Shown here: piece by piece, positions 2 to 63,539 of the stretch
How positions within the stretch are numbered: the first letter of the stretch is position 1
Layout: every line of letters starts with the position of its first letter
Assembly: GCA_023213195.1 (NCBI GenBank)
Contig: CP096135.1
Coordinates: 1,258,616-1,322,615 of the forward strand
Direction: 5' to 3'
Length of the DNA: 64,000 bases
Source of the DNA: Sphingobacteriales bacterium JAD_PAG50586_3
GTDB lineage: Bacteria > Bacteroidota > Bacteroidia > CAMBQF01
Made by a program: the position numbers and the translations under genes
Notes under the pieces: model-generated
Database searches by the model: none
Told to the model about the DNA's origin: nothing
Seen by the model: only the letters and a program-made list of their open reading frames with translations

Positions 2-895
2 AAAACCCAGATATTTGAAGAGCACCCCAAGAAGATTATCAATAAAGTTGATAGTCCGGATATTGGTGCTGCTTATTCTATGAACCCGTATCAGGGCTGC
101 GAGCATGGCTGTATATATTGCTATGCCCGTAATACACACGAGTATTGGGGCTTTAGTGCAGGGTTAGATTTTGAGCAGAAGATTATCGTTAAGCCCGATG
201 CTGCTAAGTTGCTTGAAAGAGATTTGCGCCGCAAGAACCACCAGCCACTACCTATTATGTTCTCTGGGAATACAGATTGTTACCAGCCCATAGAGCGGAA
301 AATGAAGCTGACCAGGCAAATGCTGGAGGTGTTGCTAAAGTTTCGCCACCCGGCAGGTATGATAACCAAGAATGCTTTAATACTGCGCGATATTGATATT
401 TTGCAGGAGATGGCTAAGCTAAGATTGGTGCATGTTATGGTATCAATTACATCGTTAAAAGAAGACCTGCGCCAGCAAATGGAACCCCGCACGGCAACGG
501 CCAAGCGTAGGCTGCAGGTAATAGAGCAGCTAAGCAAAGCGGGTATACAAACAGGTATAATGACAGCCCCTATTATTCCGGGGTTGAATAGCGAAGAAAT
601 ACCCGCTTTGATTAAAGCCGCAGGCGACCATGGTGCAAGCATGGCAGGCTATACCATTGTAAGGCTTAACGGGGCTATTGGGCCCATCTTTACCGATTGG
701 GTACACAAGAACTACCCCGATAGGGCAGAGAAGGTGTTAAACCAGATAAAAGAAGCCCACGGAGGACAGTTGAACGATAGCCGCTTTGGTACCCGCATGC
801 GTGGCGAGGGTAAGATTGTAGAATCTATAAGGCAAATGTTTACCACATCGGTAGCTAAGCATATAAAAGTAAAAACCGCCAGGTCTATGAGTTAG
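2..895 (+). CDS. Radical SAM protein of the PA0069/SplB-like family (5' end outside the window)
   Basis: The frame is open to the left edge, so the N-terminus is missing; the first visible Met (position 80) lies directly before the iron-sulfur motif and is not the true start. The motif CEHGCIYC gives the CxxxCxxC pattern that binds the 4Fe-4S cluster used to cleave S-adenosylmethionine, preceded by NPYQG, which is typical of the PA0069/spore-photolyase-like (SplB/Rv2578c) radical SAM group. Further family signs are the MFSGNTDCYQP and MTAPIIPGLN blocks and the C-terminal GTRMRGEG. The substrate of this family is not established. No clear operon partner is visible; the next gene is convergent. 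Confidence 0.85.
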   Translation, partial: KTQIFEEHPKKIINKVDSPDIGAAYSMNPYQGCEHGCIYCYARNTHEYWGFSAGLDFEQKIIVKPDAAKLLERDLRRKNHQPLPIMFSGNTDCYQPIERKMKLTRQMLEVLLKFRHPAGMITKNALILRDIDILQEMAKLRLVHVMVSITSLKEDLRQQMEPRTATAKRRLQVIEQLSKAGIQTGIMTAPIIPGLNSEEIPALIKAAGDHGASMAGYTIVRLNGAIGPIFTDWVHKNYPDRAEKVLNQIKEAHGGQLNDSRFGTRMRGEGKIVESIRQMFTTSVAKHIKVKTARSMS

Positions 896-952
896 ACCTG
901 ACGGCTTTTAGGGTACCCGATGAACACGGGCAATTAAATTTGTTCGACTAGG

Positions 953-1996
953 TTAGTCAATCTCTCCGGTAGTGTAGTTCATACGGTCTGACAGGCTTGT
1001 AGAAGCGCCAAACATATAACCTACTTTACCATTGAAAGAACCATCGCCGTTATCTTCAAGAATTTTGATTTTTACACAGTATAGGCCGCTTGCATCTTTA
1101 GCCATTTCCCTGTTTAGCAATTCAAAAGTAGCACCTTCGTTTACGCGGGTCACATCGCTCCAGCTGTATTGCTTAAAGCCAGCTGTTGGAGAGAAGGTAA
1201 CTGTACCGTAAATATCAGGGTAGTTGCTAGATACCTGGTCTTTGAAAGAGCCACCGCTGCTGCTTTTGCTAGATGAGCCGCTGCTGCAAGCAGAGCCACC
1301 GTCAATGCGCTCTGCGGTATAATCCATATTGTCAGACAGGCTTGTAGATGCACCAAACACGTAACCTATTTTACCATTAAATTTACCGGTGCCGTTATCG
1401 TCTTTAATTTTGATTTTAACACATAAAAGGCCGCTGGCATCCGCTACTAATGTGCGGGTCAACAGTTCAAAAGTTGCACCTTCGTTTACACGGGTAACAT
1501 CGTCCCAGCTGTATTGCTTAAAACCGGCGGTAGGAGAGAATGTGATAGTACCACAAACACCGGGGTAGGTAGATTTTGCTTTGTCTAAAAAGCCGCCGCT
1601 TGATGAAGATGACGAACTGCCGCCTTTAATACGGCCGGTGGTATAGTCCATATCGTCTGACAGGCTGGTAGAGGCGCCAAACATAAAGCCCACTTTACCA
1701 TTAAATTTACCGGTACCGTTATCATCAATAATTTTAATTTTTACACAGTAAAGGCCACTGTTATCCTTTACCATTTCGCGGGTCATAAGTTCAAATGTAG
1801 CGCCTGAGTTTACACGCGTAACATCATCCCAGCTGTATTGCTTAAAGCCCGCTGTTGGAGAGTAAGTAACTTTGCCCTTAACACCCGGATAGGTGCTTGA
1901 TGCCTTATTTAAAAAGGTTGTTTGTGCATTTACACCTGCTATGCCAATGGCCAACAGGAATAATAAAATAGTGAATTTTTTCATTAGTAGTAGCAA
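953..1996 (-). CDS. Secreted protein with three SH3-like repeats
   Basis: A 347-residue protein. Its start at MLLLMKKF or the internal MKKF gives a clear signal peptide ending near NAQ. After it come three copies of a ~90-residue unit, each with YPGV.G.VT.SPTAGFKQYSWDDVTRVN, EGATFELL, VKIKIIDDNG.GKFNGKVGYMFGASTSL (split here by position) and a closing DYTTG, separated by Ser/Gly-rich linkers. The turn-rich GKVGY.YGAS part resembles the end of bacterial SH3-like domains, but I only infer that fold. No catalytic residues are recognised. It is the last of three same-strand genes sharing the repeat, suggesting duplication. The function is unknown; export to the periplasm or surface is likely. Confidence 0.8.
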   Translation of the reverse strand: MLLLMKKFTILLFLLAIGIAGVNAQTTFLNKASSTYPGVKGKVTYSPTAGFKQYSWDDVTRVNSGATFELMTREMVKDNSGLYCVKIKIIDDNGTGKFNGKVGFMFGASTSLSDDMDYTTGRIKGGSSSSSSSGGFLDKAKSTYPGVCGTITFSPTAGFKQYSWDDVTRVNEGATFELLTRTLVADASGLLCVKIKIKDDNGTGKFNGKIGYVFGASTSLSDNMDYTAERIDGGSACSSGSSSKSSSGGSFKDQVSSNYPDIYGTVTFSPTAGFKQYSWSDVTRVNEGATFELLNREMAKDASGLYCVKIKILEDNGDGSFNGKVGYMFGASTSLSDRMNYTTGEID

Positions 1997-36461: not shown

Positions 36462-36481
36462 GGGGTATTTTGTTGGGGTAG

Positions 36482-36489
36482 CAAATATA
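36482..36489 (-). promoter_or_regulatory. Promoter box for upp
   Basis: Minus strand TATATTTG, a full TAnnTTTG match, about 20 bases before the upp ATG. Confidence 0.5.
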
Positions 36490-36539
36490 GGTTTTTTAGG
36501 GTTCAGAGGTCAGGGTTTAGGGGTCAGTTTTTGGAAATA

Positions 36540-37085
36540 AGTTTTATAATAGCCCCACCCTTTAGGGCGGGGACTAAGGCACGAAGAACAAACTCCCCTC
36601 CTTTTTAAGGAGGGGCGCCGTAGGCGGGGTGGTTACTCATTGCCTACCTGCGGTCTCTACCGAGGGTTGCCTATGCGGCAGGCACTCCTGTGCGGAGGGC
36701 AATTACTTTTTGCTTGATCAAAAAGTAATCAAAAAATCACGGCTGAAAATTAATTGTCTAAAAACTACACTCTGTTGCGCTGAACCCTGCATTCTAGTCC
36801 AACACACTTAGCAGTGCTTATGGACGTCGCTCAGGCGCAGGCTTCATCCCCGCTATTGCGGGGCTACGCTCCACTCCGTTTGTTTTATTACGACACTTAA
36901 TTTAAGGCCGAATTGTTTCCGCCGTTGGCGGAATGGGGTTCGCACTTTTCGTGGACGGCCCACGCACGAATAAACTATATCGTTGATTGTCATTCCTGCG
37001 AAGGCAGGAATCTCACCAAGCGGTAGAAGAAAATGTCCCCCTCTGGGAGGGGTGCCCAAAGGGCGGGGGAGGTTTTATTATAATA
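36540..37085. repeat. Array of palindromic intergenic repeats between upp and the two-gene cassette
   Basis: No gene is seen in 36462-37125. It holds several different inverted repeats: CCCCaCCC/GGGcGGGG (36553-36572), CCCCTCC/GGAGGGG (36595-36615), ATTACTTTTTG/CAAAAAGTAAT (36702-36729), CCCCGC/GCGGGG (36848-36863), ATTCCTGC/GCAGGAAT (36992-37011) and C-rich/G-rich units near 37037-37072. These are the short dispersed repeat types often found between Bacteroidota genes. Small frames over them are not genes. Confidence 0.8.
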
Positions 37086-37125
37086 AGAAGCTATACATCT
37101 TAATATTGAGTATATTTATAATTAA

Positions 37126-37608
37126 ATGTTAAATATGTCTGAATATTTAGAGATTGCATCTGCTTTGAAGAATCATTTTGATTCAATACAAGAATTAAAA
37201 AGGCTAAATATTGCTACAAATAAAAAAGATTTTACTTCGCAAATTGGAGAATGGTTAATAGCAGAAATTTACGGCGGAACAAGAGCCAAAAGTAGCATAC
37301 AAAAAGATTGGGATATTGAACATAATGGCAATTATATCCAAGTAAAAACTCATTCAAAATCAGAAGATAACAAGAATAGATGGACAGCTATAAAAAGTGC
37401 TGAAGGTGCTAATATTACTACATTAATAACTATCATTTTTACCCATAATTATAAATTACGTGAAATTTATTCTGTGCCATGGACTGAAGCTCTCCTATTA
37501 ATTAAACAGCATAAAGGCAGAAATATAATTTATTGGGACCATCAAAAAAAGTATCAATTAAAAATCGATGAATTACCTAATCAAGAGCTAATATCTATAT
37601 TCTTATAA
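37126..37608 (+). CDS. Predicted PD-(D/E)xK-like nuclease-fold protein of an AT-rich cassette
   Basis: 160 residues, start MLNMSEYL or the inner MSEYL. The pattern QIGEWLIAEIYGG, then KDWDIEHNG, then YIQVKTHSKS fits the E...D...(Q/E)xK core of the restriction-endonuclease fold, close in form to DUF6998 proteins. The catalytic set would be Glu of GEW, Asp of DWDIE and Lys of QVK. Codon use is clearly richer in A and T than in neighbouring genes, a sign of transfer. The next gene follows after 6 bases. Similar proteins occur next to restriction or defence genes; a role here in nucleic-acid cutting is inference. Confidence 0.6.
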   Translation: MLNMSEYLEIASALKNHFDSIQELKRLNIATNKKDFTSQIGEWLIAEIYGGTRAKSSIQKDWDIEHNGNYIQVKTHSKSEDNKNRWTAIKSAEGANITTLITIIFTHNYKLREIYSVPWTEALLLIKQHKGRNIIYWDHQKKYQLKIDELPNQELISIFL

Positions 37609-37614
37609 ATTCAA

Positions 37615-38730
37615 ATGGATTATACACTCGAAGAAATATATTTACTGATAGGGAAAGATGATAAAGTGGCGTCTATCTGGTTTAAACAAGATACTCATTC
37701 ATATAATGAGTATGGTAGATTTATTACAGCTATTATAAATTATACGCAAAAACAAAGAGAAGAACTAGATATCCTAGTAAATGAAAAACCTTTTTCGAAA
37801 ACTGGAATAATCAAAGTGAAATACTTAGGCCTTGATATGGCTAAAGAAAAAGTTGCGAACTTGGTTACAGATGGAATTGAGTCTAGTGATATCTCTAAGA
37901 TTGAATATTCTGAAAGATTAATATCCAATAAATTTCATTCTATTCAGAAAAGGGAAATAACTAAAATAAATGTGCCATTTACCTCTTTGCCAAAGGGTCA
38001 AGATGCAAATTGGCAATATGGATTTTATAAAATGTTAGTAACTGATAATGTTGGCTTATGTCCAGAAGAAAGATATTCTTATTTGGCTTCAAAATACTAT
38101 TTCGAAAAAGAAAACTTAACAGATGCGGAAAAGGGTGAAGTATATACTCAGAATGGATTAAATGAAAATGTCGAATGGAAATTACTAAAGCTAAAACGTC
38201 ATAGGAAAGATATAACTGATGATGAAAATCAACGGCTGTTAAAATTGTATGTTCTACACAAAAAGAAAGTTAGAGAAAAGCTCGATAAATGTTTAAAGGA
38301 AGCAGGCAGCAGCTTAAATACACTGATTAAGACTAATAATGAACTGGCAAAGACAATGTTGTTCAAAGGACTTTTCTATCAACAGAGAAGATTTAATGCA
38401 ATTGGACTAATTCCTATTTATTTAGATTTAGATAGATATTTACATATTTATACTAGGCATGTTGAAGAAATGAAATTTAATAGTCAATTTAAATCAAAAG
38501 ATAATTTTCAGTGGGAAGAACCAGATGTTTTAATAGTTATTGGTAAAGTTATAGAAGAACTTGATGATGAAATACAGCAATATTTTAAAATAAATCTAGG
38601 CAAACGTTATAGTAGATATGGAGATCAAAGCTATTACTTCGAAGGGGATTATTATACTTTTCATATAGAGCCCAATGGTCTAATTAGTACATTTCATAAA
38701 AACAAAAAGACTCACGAACGCATAGTATAG
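37615..38730 (+). CDS. Protein of unknown function with a possible BECR-type RNase C-terminus
   Basis: 371 residues, soluble, Lys/Glu/Tyr-rich, same AT-rich codon use as the gene before it. Residues ~1-270 match nothing I know. The last ~100 residues show DRYLHIYTRHVEEMKF, then FQWEEPDVLIVIGKVIEEL, then YYFEGDYYTFHIEPNGLIST. This order (H..RH, an acidic helix, two strands, G.I.T) resembles RNase toxins of the barnase/EndoU/colicin/RelE (BECR) group. If so, the His residues would be catalytic. It forms a tight pair with the nuclease-like gene, and both are framed by palindromic repeats. Confidence 0.45.
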   Translation: MDYTLEEIYLLIGKDDKVASIWFKQDTHSYNEYGRFITAIINYTQKQREELDILVNEKPFSKTGIIKVKYLGLDMAKEKVANLVTDGIESSDISKIEYSERLISNKFHSIQKREITKINVPFTSLPKGQDANWQYGFYKMLVTDNVGLCPEERYSYLASKYYFEKENLTDAEKGEVYTQNGLNENVEWKLLKLKRHRKDITDDENQRLLKLYVLHKKKVREKLDKCLKEAGSSLNTLIKTNNELAKTMLFKGLFYQQRRFNAIGLIPIYLDLDRYLHIYTRHVEEMKFNSQFKSKDNFQWEEPDVLIVIGKVIEELDDEIQQYFKINLGKRYSRYGDQSYYFEGDYYTFHIEPNGLISTFHKNKKTHERIV

Positions 38731-38869
38731 TAATTAATTTATTCTTTAAAAGGATATGGCTGTTTTGTCAAGCGCCACTATAAATTAATTAATTGTATTT
38801 TAGTTAGGTAACATTGATAATATAAAGCAGGGTTGACAAGCCCCTATCCGAGGTTGTATCTTTGTGGTG

Positions 38870-38995
38870 GAGAGAGAAAACCTCCCTCCCCGTTGCGCAT
38901 GCGCAACGGTACTCCCTCAATGAGGGAGACCTAAAACATTTACTAAACCAAAGACTCCCCCGCCCGCCAGCGGGCACCCCTCTTAGAGGGGGATT
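38870..38995. repeat. Palindromic repeats closing the AT-rich cassette
   Basis: Contains a perfect 20-base palindrome (38890-38909, CCGTTGCGCA then its complement), a CTCCCTC/GAGGGAG pair (38912-38928) and further CCCGC/GCGGG and CCCCTCT/AGAGGGG pairs. These are the same classes as in the array on the other side of the cassette. Confidence 0.75.
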
Positions 38996-39002
38996 TAATT
39001 AA

Positions 39003-40375
39003 TTGCCTACGATGAAAAAGCCTTTTAACCCACCTACCGTTAAACACGATATTGAGCATTTTAAAATAATGGAACCTAACGCTAAGGGCGAGATGGTGGA
39101 AAAACATATTGTGCGTATATCCGGTCCGGGGTTGCCGGGTATTGATTACCCATACGAAGACGAAAGCCTGCCTAAGGTTTTGCAGCGCTACAGCTTGGCA
39201 GATGTATTAAATACACCTCCCAAGAAACCCGAAAAGCTATGGGGCAATTATTGGCAAAGCGGTCAGCTATGCATATTGGCGGGCGATATGGGTACGGGTA
39301 AAAGTACTGTGGCTATACAGTTGGCGAAAAGCTTGAGCCTCACCCCCGGCCCCTCTCCAAAGGAGAGGGGGAAATAAATCCCCCATCGGCACTTGAAGAA
39401 AATCCCCCGTCAGCACTTACCAGTGCTGACACCCCCATTGAAAAGGGGGAACTTAATAAAGGCAAAAAAGTATTATTTATCGGGTTTGAGTTGAGTGGGG
39501 CGGATATGCGGATGCGGTATGGCAGTGGGGAGGTATCGGAAAACTTGTTTTATGCTAACCTGAATGCCGATGCTTTTGCAACGGGCAGGGCTACGCTGGG
39601 CGAACGGTTGGTTACTTTGCTTGATGATATGGTTAAAGAAACAGGGGCCGAGGTGGTTATTATAGACCAGCCCGACCGTATGCACCTGCAACCCGCCATG
39701 TGGAATTATTTTATGCTAAAACTAAATGCCCTGAAAGTGCAACAAGGGGTTTCTATACTCATTACCCTAAACAATAAGCCCCGCAACCTGAGCAAAGCGC
39801 CCACCATTAGCAGCCTGTACAAAAGCAACCTGCTGGCCCCGCATGCCGATAGTATTGTGTGTATAGCCAACCATTGCAGGCAAGAAGGGAAACGGTATAT
39901 AAAACTACTAAAAAATACGGCCCTGCCCCTAGGTGAAAATGCCTTGGTTGAGGTGTTGGAAATTGGGTTGCAAAACAATGAAATTTTGCTACAACCACCG
40001 ACGATTCTGTCGGTGCAGGTGTGCGGCACAGAGCAGGAAGAAAAAGTACTACAACCCACCGCCACCGAGCGCCGGAATGCCCGCATGATTTTAGCCGAAG
40101 AAATGCGTTGCCAGGGGATGAGTTTCAGGGATATTGCTATTGCAATGGAATTGCCGGAACGGACGGTTAGGAGTTGGGTATCGTTTATAGGGGAGAGAGC
40201 AGTGAGGAGTGAGGAGCGGGAAGTTGCGAGTGTTGAGGGCGGTGGGGTGAGTGATAAGCATGAGCAGGCTTACCATTTGGTATCGGGAGAAAGGGGTGGT
40301 GGCTTCGGGTTAGTACAAACGGAACATGCCGCCACCCCTCCCTCACGCCGAAGGCGTGAGTACTCCCCTTTGTAG
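39003..40375 (+). CDS. RecA-fold (RepA-like/AAA_25) ATPase with a palindromic repeat inside the coding region (frameshifted)
   Basis: The first frame has Walker A GDMGTGKST and a following helix (VAIQLAKSLS), then stops inside a C-rich repeat. From ~39350 another frame runs through the repeat without a stop (PPSALEENPPSALTSADTPI) into KGKKVLFIGFELSGADM, the second strand of the RecA fold, and Walker B VVIIDQPD. One base change in the C run at 39342-39346 would give one ~457-residue protein. The insert lies in a surface loop. Near the C-terminus, ERRNARMILAEEM and MSFRDIAIAMELPERTVRSWV form a helix-turn-helix. The last residues and stop codon come from a second repeat copy (40330-40375). DNA-linked function in a mobile element is likely. 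Confidence 0.65.
39339..39450 (+). repeat. Repeat inserted in the ATPase gene
   Basis: Contains CCCCTCTCC AAA GGAGAGGGG (39350-39370) and GTCAGCACT TACC AGTGCTGAC (39409-39430). One frame encodes the LTPGPSPKERG peptide often produced by this repeat type; another is open throughout. Confidence 0.75.
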
Positions 40376-40392
40376 GGGGAGAGCCATTTAAT
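40330..40392 (+). repeat. Repeat forming the 3' end of the ATPase gene
   Basis: CTCACGCC GAA GGCGTGAG (40342-40360) and TCCCC/GGGGA (40363-40380). It supplies the Arg-rich end and the stop of the ATPase frame. Confidence 0.7.
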
Positions 40393-40474
40393 GAAGAACT
40401 ATTTCCCCCTCACTTGTTCAATACTACCCTTAGGGAGTGGATAAATATCGTAGACCCCATGCCCTAATAATTTT

Positions 40475-63122: not shown

Positions 63123-63171
63123 TGGTTTATTGGGGATATGGGCAAGCAATATAGGGTTAACGAAACTAATG

Positions 63172-63539
63172 TGGAGCCGGAGGGATTCGAACCCTCGTCC
63201 AAACAAGAAATTACTGTGCTTTCTACGCGCTTATCATCTTGTTAATTGTCGGGTAAGTGCAGGCCAAGTTGCCCGCCAACACAAACCGTATCTGCTAATA
63301 CGTCAACAAGCCCGCAGCTTGCCTGTTAACGACCGGGCATTTGATGATGCCGTTACTCCTACCGCAGCCCGGCCGAGTTGCAGGAAACGACAATGACTAT
63401 GCTAATCTGAGATTAGGCAGCCATGGCGTAGTTATTCTCGCCAGTTATTTGTTTTGCTAAGTTGATTTTTACGGGGTACACTTGCAACCCCCGGCGTGCT
63501 TACACAACAAGTGCATGCTGTCAAAACCATGTCGGCCCC
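63172..63539 (-). ncRNA. ssrA: tmRNA
   Basis: 368 nucleotides, minus strand. The 5' GGGGCCG pairs with CGGCTCC at the 3' end to form the tRNA-like acceptor stem, and GTTCGAATCC gives the T-arm. The tag frame begins with GCA at 63455-63457 and reads AKQITGENNYAMAA, ending in TAA at 63413-63415. The 3' CCA is not encoded (the sequence after the discriminator A is CAT), so it must be added by nucleotidyltransferase. tmRNA rescues stalled ribosomes with SmpB and marks the product for proteolysis. Confidence 0.96.

Follow-up and report, generated by a model that had tools for sequence, protein, structure and literature searches.

A putative BisI-like nuclease with altered methyl-reading residues, beside a very rare gene at a repeat-rich spot in a Sphingobacteriales genome

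Eco15I and NhoI belong to the BisI family of Type IIM endonucleases, which depend on 5-methylcytosine (5mC). The active site of the family consists of E50, D70, Q80, and K82 (in the numbering of NhoI), and alterations of the tested active-site residues abolish the activity of Eco15I (PMC11347163). Two pockets read the methyl groups. The external pocket includes R84, for which about half of the family have T or V, and S98, while the internal pocket is formed by an (H/R)(V/I/T/M) pair and R101. Changing R84 of NhoI to histidine lowers the activity about 100-fold.

Here we describe a distant relative of these enzymes, ORF1, and the gene that follows it, ORF2. Both lie in a window of 64 kb (the whole stretch of DNA that we analysed, 64,000 nucleotides; Table 1). 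A preliminary description of this DNA had viewed them as a two-gene nuclease cassette and a possible defence system. As it reported, the genes are just 6 bases apart, and they are richer in A+T than their surroundings: the cassette has a GC content of 29.0%, while that of the window is 42.6%, and no other 1.6-kb stretch of the 64 kb is as AT-rich. Both genes lie on the same strand. The GC content at third codon positions is about 0.2 (0.19–0.22) in the two ORFs and 0.46–0.53 in the flanking housekeeping genes. Because of the 6-base spacing, ORF1 and ORF2 are likely to be co-transcribed.

Table 1. Features of the locus, relatives of ORF2, and copies of the AAA_25-HTH gene.
Feature	Position	Strand	Remarks
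Stretch absent between upp and trxB in G001	36466–40396		contains the repeats, ORF1, ORF2, and the AAA_25-HTH gene
Dispersed palindromic repeat, left copy	37036–37072		inverted partner of 38957–38993
ORF1	37126–37608	+	160 amino acids; BisI/Eco15I-type PD-(D/E)XK nuclease, predicted catalytic residues E42, D63, Q72-V-K74
ORF2	37615–38730	+	371 amino acids; rare protein without family or structure match
Dispersed palindromic repeat, right copy	38957–38993		inverted relative to 37036–37072
AAA_25-HTH gene	39003–40375	+	two frames, 39003–39377 and 39491–40375, around a dispersed repeat
tmRNA gene	63171–63539	-	tag GENNYAMAA
ORF2 relative, G087	L012 8812–10161		26% identity, E=4e-28
ORF2 relative, G359	L018, about 183–1391		at contig edge
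Other AAA_25-HTH copies	G000:C1 57304, 230847, 908655, 1086736, 1471351, 1618740		
Further AAA_25-HTH copies	G000:C1 2114306, 2299003, 2510727, 2902204, 3454961		fragment at 2534616

The best match to ORF1 in our libraries is a PADLOC profile, PDLC03212 ("Type II methyl-directed restriction enzyme"; E=4.3e-11, residues 8–119), which places ORF1 in the broad mREase_II group. The nearest solved relatives are Eco15I (PDB 8q5m, E=1e-7) and NhoI (PDB 8q5n, E=0.004). In the alignment, E42, W62-D63, and Q72-V73-K74 of ORF1 correspond to E50, W69-D70, and Q80-V81-K82 of NhoI, and ORF1 spells "WD" and "QVK" as NhoI does. That is, ORF1 has the PD-QxK catalytic site of the BisI family, along with its helix glutamate. 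The preliminary description had seen a restriction-endonuclease-type core in the motifs GEW (with E42), DWDIE (with D63), and QVK (residues 72–74); all three are present, and the core can now be specified as a PD-(D/E)XK core of the BisI/Eco15I type. Judging from these residues, ORF1 should be an active nuclease with a BisI-type fold, and it is predicted to be an outlying member of the BisI/Eco15I group of modification-dependent nucleases. (A structure model of ORF1 from two sequences was too poor for use, with a pLDDT of 37.5, and we set aside a match to the PDB profile of a circular tendon repeat as a repeat effect or too weak.)

ORF1 lacks the external methyl pocket, with H76 in place of R84 and T87 in place of S98. 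It also lacks the internal pocket: K90 replaces R101, and the H139-V140 pair becomes H139-Q140 in ORF1 (this is from the alignment with Eco15I, which is weak there). Another position, N42 of NhoI, is K34 in ORF1. The closer Eco15I-type protein of genome G078 also appears to read HQ at the HV pair. By these residues, ORF1 would fall outside the class of enzymes that are specific for 5mC in GCNGC, and it probably targets something other than the multiply 5-methylated GCNGC of NhoI and Eco15I. With the 5-methylcytosine readers of these two enzymes missing, their target is no guide to that of ORF1.

ORF1 has few relatives. A single-sequence search of 149 related genomes, two of them from the same genus, found none, and given this lack of orthologues, we rejected the idea that ORF1 is a housekeeping enzyme. 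Searching 295 genomes of the class with a two-row profile found three more relatives. The homologue in G523 is 35% identical to ORF1 (E=2e-27) and matches PADLOC's mREase_II profile with E=1.9e-5. It has the E, the WD, and the QVK in common with ORF1, as well as a changed segment, QVKTHSK...NRWT. Because the G523 homologue has ORF1's main changes, the comparison, which is of two sequences only, suggests that they form a distinct subfamily and that the changes are not random decay.

Some of the other relatives lie among defence genes. The clear Eco15I-type protein of G078 (PDLC03212, E=7e-55) is encoded next to the Dazbog genes DzbA (5e-57) and DzbB (1.6e-8). A more distant relative in G605, which has SIK for QVK, is flanked on one side by a large gene that has defence matches in PADLOC and on the other by a cytosine methyltransferase (5.7e-125). 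These settings link the wider ORF1 group to defence by association only, and no recognised defence gene adjoins the copy in the window. We also noticed the same mutase gene near two different BisI-like nucleases from two families (L102 8760–9239 and L103 2179–2667). It is possible that the neighbourhood of the mutase gene in G523 and G078, which are of different families, is a shared and perhaps conserved hot spot for defence genes.

We considered an origin from a plasmid or phage and rejected it, as the plasmid matches of ORF1 are only Eco15I-type and enterobacterial, and ORF2 has no match. The sole yield of scanning viral contigs was one Eco15I-type gene, and scans of genome contigs matched neither ORF1 nor ORF2.

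Do the two genes form a two-component defence system? If so, ORF1 would cut, and ORF2 would provide target recognition or control in place of the missing readers. The genes' close spacing on one strand and their like composition are consistent with this, and replaced readers in ORF1 could demand a separate specificity subunit. However, no ORF2-like gene lies beside the relatives of ORF1 in G523, G078, G605, G183, or G474, or beside Eco15I; even the subfamily member from G523 carries ORF1's changes without an adjoining ORF2. Nor is there an ORF1-like gene near the ORF2 relative of G087, which is the sole one with sequence on both sides (the contig of G359 starts at the ORF2 relative, with the upstream side missing). 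One genus contains both genes, with ORF2's relative in G087 and ORF1's in G523, but these are different species. Although this sample is small, none of the relatives' loci that we retrieved holds both genes, and to the extent that these loci allow a test, they give no support to a fixed two-component system; we think that such a system is rather unlikely. The preliminary description had named a lack of joint occurrence elsewhere as grounds for giving up the pair, and that is what this small sample shows. Its proposal of a paired cassette is not supported, and its proposal of a defence role is plausible for ORF1, given its family and the settings of its relatives.

ORF1 and ORF2 are part of a larger difference between related genomes. 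About 80 bases separate upp from trxB in the sister genome G001, as against 3.9 kb in the window. When the window was compared to L028 with blastn, the matches stopped at 36465 and restarted at 40397. This comparison involves one sister genome, and an insertion here or a deletion there would both fit.

The preliminary description also stated that palindromic repeats bound the pair on both sides. Inverted copies (76% complementary) do flank it, and there are terminator-like stems at about 37037–37052 and 38977–38992 (5 such stems in the region versus 1.3 expected), but repeats of this kind also occur elsewhere. Its left flank has 62 matches across the genome, and because the repeats are so dispersed, they cannot define the cassette; they mark a type of spot.

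Another gene in the 3.9-kb stretch, AAA_25-HTH, has a match to AAA_25 (E=5e-9) as well as HTH matches. Its frame is uninterrupted in the sister genome (L029). One clade of these AAA genes has a dispersed repeat (SLTPGPSPKERG...) within the reading frame (39330–39490, L029 379–1650, and L042 8305–8814); the frame continues through the repeat in the sister genome, but in the window the repeat coincides with a change of frame. The genome contains about a dozen copies of the AAA_25-HTH gene, which is present in 4 of the 60 genomes searched (counting the source genome). The same repeats are found near all 11 of the other copies examined and in 10 of 40 random 16-kb stretches of the genome. Relative to these 40 stretches, the neighbourhoods of the AAA copies have a lower minimum GC content in 1-kb windows (medians of 0.320 versus 0.371; Mann-Whitney p=0.0007), although the pattern was noticed first and the test was picked afterwards, which makes the result a lead and not a proof. 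Spots that have the repeats but lack the AAA gene are AT-rich too, and the repeats alone may explain the low GC content at the AAA copies.

The AAA copies often have AT-rich genes next to them, and some of these resemble defence genes. The AT-rich neighbours include genes that match the PADLOC candidates PDC-M64B/C and a protein with weak matches to HSDR_N and HATPase. We also observed an AT-rich pair of a Type II methyltransferase and a restriction enzyme adjoining an AAA_25-HTH fragment (L051 9206–11716). By another AAA copy (L046 6862–8398) are AT-rich genes with no match in Pfam or PADLOC; by eye, the second one starts with a SIR2-like GAGAT motif.

A spot that gathers AT-rich genes of many kinds might also hold a PD-(D/E)XK nuclease without modification dependence or a role in defence, such as the remnant of a mobile element, which would be retained there, or be decaying, by chance. 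The replaced readers and the very sparse distribution of ORF1 would fit with this. Against it are the catalytic residues, which are intact and common to the G523 homologue, and the defence settings of the relatives; furthermore, no known family of mobile-element nucleases matches ORF1. We consider this explanation unlikely.

Searches of Pfam, PADLOC, NCBIfam, PHROGs, PDB, plasmids, and phages gave no significant match to ORF2. The family is very rare: among the genomes sampled, we found just two full-length relatives, in G087 and G359, both from the same phylum. At L012 8812–13039, the relative in G087 adjoins a large serine recombinase, whose gene in turn overlaps a shortened gene resembling comM; this suggests that the locus is an integrated mobile island. 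The best-conserved part of ORF2 is the last ~105 residues (about 38401–38727), in which H, RH, K, and Y residues are invariant (including H15, R19, and H20 in domain numbering). This C-terminus recalls the BECR RNases, as they are described in PMC5512222. It nevertheless seems improbable that ORF2 is a toxin-like RNase that arrests growth, with ORF1 as its trigger, partner, or neighbour: the invariant residues, and a histidine-bearing helix followed by likely strands, are in a BECR-like order, but a Pfam search with the C-terminal domains of three members, run up to E=10, matched no BECR family, the serine or threonine (alcoholic) position expected in the late strands of BECR is not conserved in the family, there is no antitoxin-like gene, ORF1 resembles a nuclease and not an immunity protein, and the structure model of ORF2 is unusable (from a single sequence, pLDDT 33.5). 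The RNase fold that had been suggested for the end of ORF2 is not borne out by these results. (We set aside matches of the C-terminus to PDB profiles of designed repeat proteins and of Rqc2 as repeat effects or too weak.)

The explanation that we favour, and that we hold to be somewhat probable, is that ORF1, which has no methyltransferase beside it, belongs to an outlying BisI-like subfamily and acts as an orphan restriction nuclease and that ORF2 is a passenger at a repeat-rich acquisition spot. ORF1 would dimerise on incoming DNA and would cut it, probably if it is modified, through the E/D/QxK active site. Phage or plasmid DNA would be destroyed, and unmodified host DNA would be spared. 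Both genes probably arrived as foreign DNA at the repeat-rich upp-trxB spot with the AAA_25-HTH gene, and ORF2 was probably acquired separately, as an AT-rich passenger. A bolder combination, that the ORF1/G523 subfamily reads a modification other than 5mC in GCNGC and also that the AAA_25-HTH/repeat units capture AT-rich defence cargo, strikes us as doubtful when both parts are taken together.

Modification-dependent nucleases protect against phages whose DNA is altered, and they serve as tools for mapping DNA modification. A subfamily with the BisI catalytic core but replaced methyl readers would supply compact enzymes that may have a new specificity. And if the AAA_25-HTH/repeat spots do gather defence genes, then looking for such spots would be a simple way to locate others in this group of bacteria.

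How does the locus compare to known systems? ORF2 shares with the BECR/PBECR RNases a short C-terminal domain whose histidines are conserved, but it differs from them in its lack of a profile match and at the serine/threonine position of the active site. The PADLOC mREase_II proteins of PDLC03204/03205 (the relatives in G183, G474, and G605) are from the same nuclease group as ORF1, with a weak match via PDLC03212, but they have SIK where ORF1 has QVK, and they are without the QVKTHSK...NRWT segment. Compared to Eco15I and NhoI, ORF1 is only about 25% identical; its C-terminal region is hardly alignable; the extra C-terminal domain of Eco15I is absent; and the residues that match R84, S98, R101, N42, and V140 of NhoI are replaced. 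Yet ORF1 is the same kind of small PD-(D/E)XK nuclease, with the QxK motif and with E, D, Q, and K all aligned, and like Eco15I and NhoI, it is encoded by an orphan gene with no methyltransferase beside it.
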